A stretch of 64,000 bases of DNA from Schizosaccharomyces osmophilus. Taxonomy: Eukaryota > Ascomycota > Schizosaccharomycetes > Schizosaccharomycetales > Schizosaccharomycetaceae. The notes beneath the pieces were generated by a model. It saw only the letters and a program-made list of their open reading frames with translations, searched no databases and was not told the DNA's origin. Each line of letters starts with the position of its first letter. The stretch's first letter is position 1. The stretch lies in NCBI RefSeq assembly GCF_027921745.1, contig NC_079239.1, forward strand, positions 2,011,501 to 2,075,500, in the 5' to 3' direction. A program made the position numbers and the translations under genes. Below are positions 30,778 through 35,040 of this stretch, piece after piece.

Positions 30778-31773
30778 TTATCTGCGTTTCAAGGACTTTC
30801 TACGCTTACGATAAGCGTCACCCATCCGACTTTGACCGGATCCCGATGCGCCTTCAGAGGCGTCTGATGCGCCACGCTTGTTTGCACGAGAAGAAAGGTC
30901 CAATTTACGAGAGGCAAAAGCATCACTGTTAAAGCTGCGATCCAATAAAGACCAATCTTCACCACCAAAACCGGGTTTCTTTGGTTTCTTGACATTTTTG
31001 AGTTCTTTCTTGGACAATTTTGGAAGACGAGTGTAATTGCTTTCTTCATAATCCGCACGCTCGCGCATCTTCTCCAATTCTCTTTCATCTGCATGAATAA
31101 CTCGACCACCTCGTTCCAAGTTAGAGCCAACACTTGGCATACTCTGAGGTAAAGATGACAAATCAGATGAAACAAATTCATCAACAAGTTGATTAGGTCT
31201 ACGTCTAGTCTTTTTCTCATCGTCCATTGTAACGGCACGAATCCTTGGGGGTCGATAAACACCATCCTTCTTGGACTCATCCTCGTCGTCCTCAGATGTA
31301 ACTTCTTCTGAGGCAGCATCTTTTTTATTACTCTTCTTGTCTGTTCCTTTAGCGGCAGGTGCCTCTTCTTCGTCACTCTCAAGTCCAACAAGATTTGGCT
31401 TATAATGAAGCTTAAGGCTATCGGTGTCTTCTTGATTGATGCCACCATCCAATCCAGAAGTGCTTAAAGATTCCAATTCTTCCTTACGTTCAGCAGCACG
31501 CAAGAGTTTATCTAGCGAATACTGGATGCGATTTTCCAAAGGTCGGACCTTTTCAATTTCCAGTCGCAAACGAACGAGCTTCTCTACGACATTCTGGAAT
31601 TCCAAGTAACTTTTCCCTTCTAGTTTTACTAAAATTAAGAATGCAAGCTTTTGAACATAGGAAAGGAGTAACTGGGTTTTCAAAGATACCAACGAAACGC
31701 CCTCAGATGTAGGGTTGATGTTCTTTGGTAGACTGTCCAGCGCAGAGACCAGACTTCTGTTTATAACATCCAT
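30778..31773 (-). CDS. lcp5: U3 snoRNP-associated Lcp5/neuroguidin-family protein
   Basis: This intronless 331-residue protein has an N-terminal Sas10/Utp3/C1D-type helical domain (residues about 20-115), including LLLSYVQKLAFLILVKLEG and VEKLVRLRLEIEKVRPLENRIQYSLDKLL. An acidic, Lys-rich middle follows, then a basic C terminus (DAYRKRRKSLKRR), typical of a nucleolar protein. Lcp5 family members act in the small-subunit processome during 18S rRNA maturation. Order and orientation match SPAC18B11.06. Confidence 0.92.
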   Translation of the reverse strand: MDVINRSLVSALDSLPKNINPTSEGVSLVSLKTQLLLSYVQKLAFLILVKLEGKSYLEFQNVVEKLVRLRLEIEKVRPLENRIQYSLDKLLRAAERKEELESLSTSGLDGGINQEDTDSLKLHYKPNLVGLESDEEEAPAAKGTDKKSNKKDAASEEVTSEDDEDESKKDGVYRPPRIRAVTMDDEKKTRRRPNQLVDEFVSSDLSSLPQSMPSVGSNLERGGRVIHADERELEKMRERADYEESNYTRLPKLSKKELKNVKKPKKPGFGGEDWSLLDRSFNSDAFASRKLDLSSRANKRGASDASEGASGSGQSRMGDAYRKRRKSLKRR

Positions 31774-32069
31774 TTAAAGCAATTCTTTAGGAATGGACGC
31801 CTTCTTTTCTGGCTCTTTCTGAGAATTGGAAAGAATAGGCAAAATGAGAGTTCGTGTGTGTCCAAATTTTGTATCCAATCCCCTAAATAAGGAAGTGGTC
31901 CTTCTTCACAAAACTAATTTAAGGACCTACAACGTATGTTTATATTTTGTAAATCTTTTATTAAAAGTTGAGTTTATAAAAAGGTAGATGAGAAGCAAGG
32001 CATAATTGTTTAATTTAGTTCATATTCTTTAAACAATTATTCGACTGACATTTTTCATTACGAGAAGAA

Positions 32070-33380
32070 CTATGCTGGTGGTAAAAAAGAACCATACAAA
32101 CCTGCTTGTATGAGAGTATAAAGAACCCATGAGAAGAGAATAATTTCTGTAAATTTTCTGACATGCAAGGATGAACTTTGTGACCAAGCATGAGCCAAAG
32201 ACCAGTATAAGAGGGGAAAAGAGGAAGAAAGTCGGTTTAGTACTTGGGTGTGCATTTGAAAGATTCCTAGGTATAGATAGAAAAGGCTGAGCATAAAAAG
32301 ATACCGTATAGTTACATCCTTCCTTATGGATGTAATCGAGTACCATAAAGAAAAGACAAGGGGGATAAACGTGATACAAGCTAGAAAGAAATTGGGTATG
32401 TTGTTCGATGTCCAGTAATTGAGAAAACCAATATTCCAATACTTCTTTTGAACCGCAGGGTATATGAATGGTAGATACGACAGACACCAGGAAGCACGAG
32501 GACAAAATACCTTGTAGGCTTGAAACTGGCCGTACAAGAAAGGAACAGCGATTCCGATACATCTGCAACCGTTTAAGAAGGCAGTCCTGAGAAATTTAGA
32601 AACTCCAACTTTCTGTCTCACAAAAGAAAAAAAGGTGTCTGTTGTAGGAATAACAAATAGTAATGACCAGAAGAGACCATTGCTTCGGAAAAGTGTAGAA
32701 ATAGACCAAAACATCATAGCCAACGTCTGTCGTTTTTGTACATAGCACAAGAGTCCGAGAAAACTGCATGCGGAAAACGCCGATTCTGTGTAACCAACTG
32801 ACATAAATATTCCAGCGGGCGAGAACAAGTAGAAAATGACGGAGAGTACTGAGATTCGTTTATCGAAGAACACAACATTAGTAGTACAGTAAAAAGCCAC
32901 GGCCGCAATAGCATGTAAGACGATAGCTAAACAACACGCACCTAATCCTAGCACAACAACATCCTTTGATTCAAAGCAAATAAATCTTATAAGAGCACCC
33001 CAAACGTCCGAAAATGCCCACTCTTGTTCGAATAATCGATTTTGTAATGACATGTCCACAAAGTAAATTGCGTCCCAGCGGATCCAAGCCTTAAAAAATC
33101 CTATAAGCAGAGAATTTCTAATTTGGGAATCATGCTGGCTCAAATAAAGACCTGCTGTGTGATCAAAAACTGACAAACTAGAAGTTATGAAAGCAATCCC
33201 TAGATAAGAAAATGTGCTCAGGACAAACAATAGAACGCAAGTTTTCCTTGAATTTATGGAAAAGATACTATGATTTTTCTTGTTTGAGAATTTCCTCGAC
33301 CTTGCGCATTCGCCTTTGTTCTCGGAGTTTTTCAAGTTCGTCGTGGATTTCCTCTCTTTCAGTGGGAATTGATCGGTCAT
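32070..33380 (-). CDS. gpi18: GPI mannosyltransferase II (Gpi18/PIG-V)
   Basis: This multi-spanning membrane protein (436 residues from the ATG at 33380) has a PIG-V type lumenal motif at about residues 102-120 (WDAIYFVDMSLQNRLFEQEWAFS). Gpi18 adds the second mannose to the GPI anchor precursor in the ER. The first transmembrane segment begins at about residue 47. The start is uncertain. The ATG at 33380 lies inside the third exon of the Pet100-like gene on the same strand, so the first 38 codons overlap that gene in another frame. There is no later in-frame ATG before the first membrane segment. Either the overlap is real or gpi18 has an undetected 5' exon spliced to a site such as the AAG near 33247. 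Confidence 0.9.
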   Translation of the reverse strand: MTDQFPLKERKSTTNLKNSENKGECARSRKFSNKKNHSIFSINSRKTCVLLFVLSTFSYLGIAFITSSLSVFDHTAGLYLSQHDSQIRNSLLIGFFKAWIRWDAIYFVDMSLQNRLFEQEWAFSDVWGALIRFICFESKDVVVLGLGACCLAIVLHAIAAVAFYCTTNVVFFDKRISVLSVIFYLFSPAGIFMSVGYTESAFSACSFLGLLCYVQKRQTLAMMFWSISTLFRSNGLFWSLLFVIPTTDTFFSFVRQKVGVSKFLRTAFLNGCRCIGIAVPFLYGQFQAYKVFCPRASWCLSYLPFIYPAVQKKYWNIGFLNYWTSNNIPNFFLACITFIPLVFSLWYSITSIRKDVTIRYLFMLSLFYLYLGIFQMHTQVLNRLSSSFPLLYWSLAHAWSQSSSLHVRKFTEIILFSWVLYTLIQAGLYGSFLPPA

Positions 33381-33602
33381 CGTTTTTCCAGAAGTTTGCC
33401 TACGATGATTAGTTACTTGTTTATGCGAAACATTTCATACACGCTCGATGTTTTTTTCGTAATAGCTAGGGTGTCCGATATAGTACATTGCCCCCAATGG
33501 AAGCGCACAATATAAAGTAAACTAGTTAAATAATAATTAATACACCGAATACAATAACAAGATCGCACTTACCTTGACTAGTTCGAGGTTTACACGAACC
33601 AT
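33268..33602 (-). CDS. pet100: Pet100-like cytochrome c oxidase assembly factor (three exons)
   Basis: Exons (leftward): 33602-33573, 33521-33441 and 33399-33268 (80 residues). The gene has not been obvious because no exon exceeds 44 codons. The joined protein begins MVRVNLELVKFTLYCALPLGAMYY, like the human PET100 start MGVKLEIFRMIIYLTFPVAMFW, with one membrane segment. HPSYYEKNIERANFW follows, then a charged coiled-coil tail (TEREEIHDELEKLREQRRMRKVEE), again as in PET100. Introns of 51 and 41 bases have GTAAGT/CTAG and GTATGA/GTAG ends; the second contains a TAACTAAT branch site. All junctions are phase 0. Pet100 helps assemble complex IV at the mitochondrial inner membrane. Its last exon overlaps the start of the gpi18 frame by 113 bases. 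Confidence 0.88.
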
Positions 33603-34278
33603 GGAAGTAAAGGTACAATAGTAAAGTTGAGTACCGTTATGCAGAAATACGACCACGGAAACAACAAACAAATAGTCTCCAAAACCTAGTTTATTCTTTA
33701 AAACATAAGATGATTATGATTAAATAGGATTATCTGACTAGCTAAGCATAGATTCAGTTAGGCATACTCAACTTTGCTAATTTACTGTTGCTCTCTAAGA
33801 ATAAATCTTTAAAAACTACATAAGCCAGATTTCTAAACACCGTGAAGCAATCAAGTTGAGTGTATTCCCTAGGCCGATGAATCTTATATCCTTGCTTGAA
33901 AGCTAAAGTAGAAGGAACGTATATTCCGATCAGCAAATTTAATCCTCAATACACTTATGAGTTTGTATACATGATTCGACATCCAGCCGTTAAGTGAGGT
34001 TTGGCTCAGCTCATAAAGTATTATTTGTAATTGATGAGCATTATTCATACCAATTCTAACGAATTACAATCGCCAAATAATATAAAAAGAATAAATCTAA
34101 GCACCTTTGGCTAAAGTTTGGAACCTTGACGTTAAAAAATATTGGTATCAACGAAAGTAAAAGGATATGTAAGTATACCAATAATGAATCAGTAAAATTC
34201 GACTGTAAATAAAAAATCGTTTCTACATTGAAAACGATAATCGGCATAAACATTAATTCCATGTTTGTCTTCGTTGAT
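33603..34278. other. Intergenic pet100-ncs1, 676 bp
   Basis: This is the promoter of the leftward pet100/gpi18 pair and the 3' region of ncs1. A leftward 60-codon frame at 33754-33936 has no recognisable similarity. Nothing else seen. Confidence 0.5.
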
Positions 34279-35040
34279 TTAGACCAAACCATCGTACAAG
34301 GAAAGAGCAGAGACAATGGTTGGATCTTTCTTTGAACCTTCACGAAATTCTTCCAAGTTTAGCTGACCATCTTTGTTCTTGTCCATCATGCTAAAAATCT
34401 TATTCACGCGCTAAATAAATGGTCAGTCTTCGATCGTTTGCTTTTGTAGTAGATGCTTACCTTCTCAGGAGTATCTTCGTCTTCAGGAAGCTTCACCATG
34501 CTGCCAACCATCTTATAAATAGCGTCAACGATCTGAAGCATTTCATTATATGAAATCAACCCATTGTTATCCAGGTCATATAATTGGAATGCCCATACCA
34601 ACTTGTCGTCAAGAGTACCTCTAGATGTGACGCTTAAAGCGCAGATAAATTCCTTAAAATCAATCGTTCCATTCTTGTCTGTATCAAAGACATTAAAGAC
34701 GTATTCTGCAAATGCCGAGGGGTCGCCAAAAGGAAAAAACTGCTTATAAATTTTCTGAAATTCTTCTTTATTCAGATTACCAGAAGGACAGTCTTTAAAG
34801 AATCCTTAAGCAAGGGTTAGCGTCTTGTCTGGAAAAGCAAAAGCGCGTTCAAGCAGACATTGCCGAGATTGAACTCGTCTGCAGAAGCATACCTTTATAC
34901 CATTGCTGTAGCTCCTTTTTATCAACTACAAATAGTTAAACTTCTGAACTTTGAAAGTCATAAAGTTCCTACGTACACCTTGTAGAGCGAACCAATTCTT
35001 GAAGTTGATCCTGTGACAACTTGGACTGAGATTTTCCCAT
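34279..35040 (-). CDS. ncs1: Neuronal calcium sensor-type EF-hand protein (four exons)
   Basis: Exons (leftward): 35040-34977, 34925-34893, 34804-34461 and 34410-34279. They give 190 residues, the usual NCS-1 size. The N terminus MGKSQSKL is an N-myristoylation signal. [20 protein letters not shown] carries the degenerate first EF hand. Three further EF hands follow ([28 protein letters not shown] and [14 protein letters not shown]), and the protein ends LSLYDGLV. Fission-yeast Ncs1 senses calcium at membranes and is linked to nutrient control of sexual development and to calcium tolerance. Splice sites are clear; exon 2 is only 33 bases. It is divergent from the pseudouridine synthase gene. 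Confidence 0.95.

Follow-up and report, generated by a model that had tools for sequence, protein, structure and literature searches.

Can one strand of a fungal chromosome encode two conserved, unrelated proteins in overlapping frames, and how might both proteins be made? We were led to this question by a locus in Schizosaccharomyces osmophilus, within the 64,000-nucleotide stretch of DNA analysed here (contig NC_079239.1, positions 2,011,501 to 2,075,500; hereafter the window), where a pet100 gene runs into the start of gpi18. One would not expect a same-strand overlap of this kind in a free-living fungus, and annotation by automatic means is prone to lose the smaller open reading frame (ORF) or to assign the wrong start to the larger one.

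A three-exon pet100 gene

An earlier note on this DNA had claimed three small exons, joined in phase 0, that encode an 80-residue protein resembling PET100, and our analysis returned the same coordinates, introns and phases:

33573..33602, minus strand: pet100 exon 1, 30 nt; AUG at 33602, with T at -3
33522..33572, minus strand: pet100 intron 1, 51 nt; GTAAGT ... TTAAC ... TAG
33441..33521, minus strand: pet100 exon 2, 81 nt; Pet100 profile positions 11-35
33400..33440, minus strand: pet100 intron 2, 41 nt; GTATGA ... CTAAT ... TAG
33268..33399, minus strand: pet100 exon 3, 132 nt including the stop codon TAG; Pet100 profile positions 42-72

Spliced in phase 0, exons 1-3 give 80 amino acids followed by TAG, and the joined product matches the Pfam Pet100 family (PF09803) over profile positions 1-72 of 73 with 62.1 bits (E = 6.2e-17; gathering cut-off, 24 bits). 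The pieces each align to the expected part of the profile: exon 2 by itself covers positions 11-35 (E = 7.6e-6), exons 1 and 2 together cover 1-35 (E = 1.5e-10), and exon 3 by itself covers 42-72, only at an E of 0.02, which is under the cut-off. With these values for the joined product and for exon 2 alone, we rejected the possibility that the match is an artefact of splice-site choice. Both introns also fit a strict donor-branch-acceptor pattern at the predicted junctions, a pattern that occurs three times in 14 uninterrupted control ORFs totalling 27,648 nt, as against twice in pet100 itself. The branch-like sites TTAAC and CTAAT agree with YTRAY, the branch consensus for Schizosaccharomyces given in the excerpted text of PMC3629103. 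Among PDB sequences searched up to an E of 1, we found only two chance-level matches to Pet100 and no solved relative. Proteins of the Pet100 family have a membrane segment at the N-terminus and a charged tail after it; in the predicted protein the hydropathy peak, from residue 8, is 1.25, below the cut of 1.5 that we used, and the charged tail is seen by eye. Yeast and human PET100 have a role in the assembly of complex IV, according to the excerpt of PMC3334569.

Three ORFs of 2-3 codons lie 5' of the pet100 AUG on the minus strand, at -163, -147 and -104 (33765-33698), and they would be of consequence only with an mRNA leader of more than about 100 nt.

The first ATG of the gpi18 frame lies inside pet100 exon 3

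The second gene occupies the same strand:

32070..33380, minus strand: gpi18 ORF, 436 amino acids, of which 50-436 match Mannosyl_trans2 (PIG-V); A at -3 of the AUG at 33380
33268..33380, minus strand: pet100/gpi18 overlap, 113 nt; shared by the pet100 frame and the gpi18 (+1) frame, in which it encodes gpi18 residues 1-37

Its product matches the PIG-V/Mannosyl_trans2 family (PF04188) with 148.8 bits (E = 4.2e-43; gathering cut-off, 22.4 bits), residues 50-436 corresponding to profile positions 6-443 of 443. The first in-frame ATG of gpi18, at 33380, lies within pet100 exon 3. The first four methionines of the protein are residues 1, 110, 193 and 222, and residue 110 is already inside the matched domain; position 33380 is therefore the sole AUG of the open frame that leaves the domain whole. 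The earlier note had likewise described this as the only usable gpi18 ATG and counted 113 bases read in two frames, and we computed the same. The first hydrophobic segment of Gpi18 comprises residues 46-71, and residues 1-46 form a basic tail (12 K/R, 4 D/E) with no family match in Pfam. We found no match to Gpi18 among PDB sequences at E values up to 1, and no confirmed relative among 42 pattern matches in bacterial and archaeal genome contigs or four in viral contigs.

A 177-amino-acid ATG ORF in an alternate frame extends from 32562 to 32029 on the minus strand, within gpi18 and beyond its end. The 164 of its codons that are inside the gpi18 coding sequence are in the +2 frame, a length reached in 1/3,000 synonymous recodings, and the ORF has no Pfam match at E values up to 1.

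It could be argued that gpi18 is not translated from 33380 at all, and that a near-cognate start past the pet100 stop, or an unseen 5' exon, leaves the overlap untranslated in the gpi18 frame. In-frame near-cognate codons are indeed present past that stop (ATC at 33266, ATA at 33257, AGG at 33248), and the part of Gpi18 encoded in the overlap carries no conserved domain, but upstream of these codons there is an AUG with A at -3. As for an unseen exon, we scanned positions 34300-33050, which hold 84 candidate introns, and built models with at most two introns of 30-700 nt, requiring a branch-like motif. Twenty-seven one- or two-intron models reach the gpi18 core, all of them dependent on a weak donor at 33552 or 33543, and 27/27 take the exon 3 acceptor (intron end 33400); the overlap is therefore kept, and exon 3 would still be read in both frames. 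Between the start of exon 3 and 33247, 0/10 AGs have a YTNAY motif in the preceding 40 nt. Since that interval holds no branch-like acceptor and none of the 27 models bypasses exon 3, the skipping of pet100 by a gpi18 5' exon, as the earlier note had entertained, is unsupported, and we regard any start other than 33380 as very unlikely.

The overlap is predicted to be dual-coding

The shared 113 nt encode the C-terminal, profile-aligned part of Pet100 together with Gpi18 residues 1-37, which precede the family domain. We asked how often a second frame stays open by chance. In 20,000 synonymous recodings that keep the Pet100 amino acids and use the codon usage of the window, the +1 frame was open across the overlap in 8.0%, and over all of exons 2-3 in 2.8%. 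We also drew 8,748 in-frame pieces of 132 nt from the 15 control ORFs; the pieces overlap one another and hence are not independent. In 1,048 of them (12.0%) the +1 frame has no stop in the final 37 codons, and in 553 (6.3%) a +1 ATG begins an open run of 30 or more codons that extends to the end of the piece. An open +1 frame is thus only mildly unusual, and we rejected it as proof of dual coding by itself, such an open overlap being expected about 6-8% of the time by chance.

The same openness would permit a +1 ribosomal frameshift in exon 3 that yields a Pet100-Gpi18 fusion, since the +1 frame is open from the TAG of exon 1 through exons 2 and 3 into gpi18. We recognised no known shift site by eye, however, the fusion would attach a mitochondrial segment to an enzyme of the ER, and an ordinary AUG is present, so that we consider a frameshift extremely improbable.

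What argues for dual coding is instead that a gene is recognisable on either side and that gpi18 has no other usable AUG: pet100 and gpi18 are, as judged from their sequences, both real, and the overlap would then be read in both frames. The earlier note had left the choice between a dual-coding overlap or bicistronic message on the one hand and an unseen gpi18 5' exon on the other. The overlap stands, with both Pfam gathering cut-offs passed and the AUG at 33380, while the bicistronic message is only probable. Because the overlap encodes only the basic tail before the Gpi18 domain, it is most likely that pet100 is the older gene and that gpi18 captured a start codon inside it.

The unusual point here is the long same-strand overlap of two conserved, unrelated genes, bicistronic overlapping mRNAs being already known in eukaryotes. 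In the open-licence literature we found no paper on the pet100-gpi18 pair and no mention of SPAC18B11.05, which we take to be the S. pombe gpi18 identifier, although the overlap may have been annotated earlier in an S. pombe database. The terms cistronic, gpi18, pet100 and uORF are absent from the main text of the S. osmophilus genome paper. ONT cDNA has been sequenced for S. osmophilus (PMC10085805).

Leaky scanning could yield both proteins from one mRNA

How might the two proteins be made? We propose, giving it an even chance from the sequence features below, that pet100 and gpi18 form a single bicistronic and partly dual-coding unit that is read by leaky scanning past the pet100 AUG. One capped mRNA would begin upstream of 33602 and then be spliced; most scanning ribosomes would initiate at the pet100 AUG (T at -3), and a fraction would bypass it and initiate at the gpi18 AUG (A at -3), which lies 130 nt downstream in the spliced RNA. 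The pet100 stop is 3' of the gpi18 AUG, and ribosomes that have translated all of Pet100 therefore cannot reach that AUG by forward scanning. If one mRNA serves both genes, the simplest reading is thus leaky scanning, and it would cause the outputs of Pet100 and Gpi18 to trade off.

From the pet100 start to that of gpi18, the spliced RNA contains three AUGs, namely that of pet100, that of gpi18 and, between them, a second one in frame with pet100 (G at -3). There are no out-of-frame AUGs between the two starts, whereas the recodings have 1.32 on average and 11% of them have none. The additional pet100-frame AUG should also catch scanning ribosomes and counts against leaky scanning. On a start-context matrix built from 15 ORF starts in the window, which we assumed to be gene starts, the pet100 start receives -1.29, that of gpi18 -0.39 and the AUG between them -0.17. 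Among the controls, 3/15 score under pet100 and 4/15 under gpi18, and T at -3 is found in 4/15. The start contexts therefore separate the pet100 and gpi18 starts weakly. In the excerpted text of PMC7049704, start context in S. pombe is described as comparatively uninformative, and the choice of AUG as having no apparent role in making alternative proteins.

Those contexts, which do not strongly favour leaky scanning, leave room for the main rival, a second transcript that starts inside pet100. Here the two genes would have separate overlapping transcripts, with a gpi18 promoter inside pet100 and an mRNA start between 33600 and 33380, so that 33380 would be the first good AUG; the DNA would be dual-coding and no mRNA would need to encode both proteins. 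If the start were past 33539 no AUG would have to be bypassed; otherwise the AUG in exon 2 would intervene. The promoter would have to be accommodated, however, in the mere 222 bp that separate the two AUGs, a stretch made up entirely of pet100 exons and introns, and an RNA that began within intron 2 would carry the two AUGs of that intron. Separate transcripts would also leave pet100 with no poly(A)-like hexamer at which to end on its own: AATAAA, ATTAAA and AATAAT occur 0 times in the 1,533-nt unit 33602-32070, as compared with 47 times in the 15 control ORFs (1.67 per kb). AATAAA flanks the unit, at 33695 and at 31962, the latter being a candidate for a shared signal:

31957..31962, minus strand: AATAAA 3' of gpi18; possible shared poly(A) signal

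The absence of the hexamers inside the unit fits, without proving, a common 3' end for pet100 and gpi18. Taken with these points, we see two transcripts as a possible arrangement, though a clearly less probable one than the bicistronic unit.

Splicing could also act as a switch, as the earlier note had suggested. Fully spliced RNA would yield Pet100, and Gpi18 would come from unspliced or partly spliced RNA by reinitiation downstream of short ORFs, or from RNA spliced at the weak donor 33552 or 33543, either of which places the pet100 AUG in the gpi18 frame. Retention of intron 1 shortens the pet100 ORF to 21 amino acids and places its end 115 or 156 nt upstream of the gpi18 AUG, and retention of intron 2 alone shortens it to 38 amino acids, with its end 54 nt upstream; the weak donors bring an upstream AUG into the gpi18 frame in the 27 models described above. 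On the other hand, retained intron 2 inserts two AUG mini-ORFs ahead of the gpi18 AUG, the donors at 33552 (GTATTC) and 33543 (GTATTA) have no G at position 5, and use of the donor at 33552 makes two introns, one of which would be only 31 nt long. The switch is possible but not needed, the spliced RNA having no out-of-frame AUG before that of gpi18, and it appears unlikely to us.

Comparison with known systems

The proposed leaky-scanning unit has partial counterparts in other eukaryotes. The excerpt of PMC11291117 describes bicistronic nuclear mRNAs of green algae that are translated by leaky scanning, with a PET100 orthologue in the Auxenochlorella set. As may be the case in our locus, the first ORF has the weaker start and the second ORF yields a second protein, and the algal set includes many mitochondrial proteins. 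Unlike the algal examples described there, the S. osmophilus pair has a 113-nt overlap, two introns of the first ORF upstream of the second start, and Gpi18 as the partner, and it is known from sequence alone. In vertebrates, STREMI, a microprotein of the mitochondrial inner membrane, and SLC35A4, a nucleotide-sugar transporter of the secretory pathway, have been shown experimentally to come from one mRNA (excerpt of PMC13303939). The pairing of a mitochondrial with a secretory-pathway protein thus occurs in vertebrates too, and there as here the ORF of the mitochondrial protein precedes that of a membrane protein which serves glycosylation in the secretory pathway; the STREMI ORF, however, is located in the 5'UTR of SLC35A4, with no overlap described in that excerpt, and the proteins are unrelated to Pet100 and Gpi18.

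Budding yeast also has bicistronic transcripts, such as YOR302W-CPA1 (excerpt of PMC8573964), where a small upstream ORF and a downstream enzyme share one fungal mRNA and the second is reached by leaky scanning, similar to what we propose. The YOR302W ORF regulates CPA1 through ribosome stalling, according to the same text, whereas pet100 encodes a conserved mitochondrial assembly factor. XLalphas and ALEX are, as we predict for our overlap, read from one strand in two frames, and they come from one transcript (excerpt of PMC4705651); in that case the frames share a single exon and the products interact, while pet100 and gpi18 are unrelated conserved genes that overlap only at their ends.

A more speculative extension, which we hold to be doubtful, is that the pair has been retained throughout Schizosaccharomyces as an obligate dual-coding bicistron, with the level of the Gpi18 mannosyltransferase governed by Pet100 translation via scanning efficiency. 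If this were true, assembly of the respiratory chain would be tied to the synthesis of GPI anchors and of the cell wall, a fungal parallel to STREMI-SLC35A4. If the two proteins are co-translated, deletion or tagging of either gene would disturb the other, and the pair would offer a tractable fission-yeast test of how two proteins are made from one eukaryotic mRNA.

Neighbouring genes

Lastly, we looked at the surroundings of the minus-strand pair. It is flanked by an ncs1-like gene, whose last ORF piece ends at 34279, and an lcp5-like gene, with its ATG at 31773, both presumed names for these neighbours; the GC content is 37.9%. A fragment of the ncs1-like product is identical to PDB entry 2l2e, presumably an S. 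pombe protein, at 106/115 residues, in keeping with a fission yeast other than S. pombe, and the lcp5-like gene belongs to the Sas10/Utp3 family. This gene (31773-30778) contains in its +1 frame an ATG ORF of 219 codons (31448-30789, minus strand), with no Pfam match above the cut-off and no PDB sequence match at E values up to 0.1. None of the 15 control ORFs listed has a longer one, and with recodings made for the lcp5-like gene and gpi18 only, a selection effect applies to its length, which was reached in 0/3,000 synonymous recodings (median 56 codons, 95% point 99).
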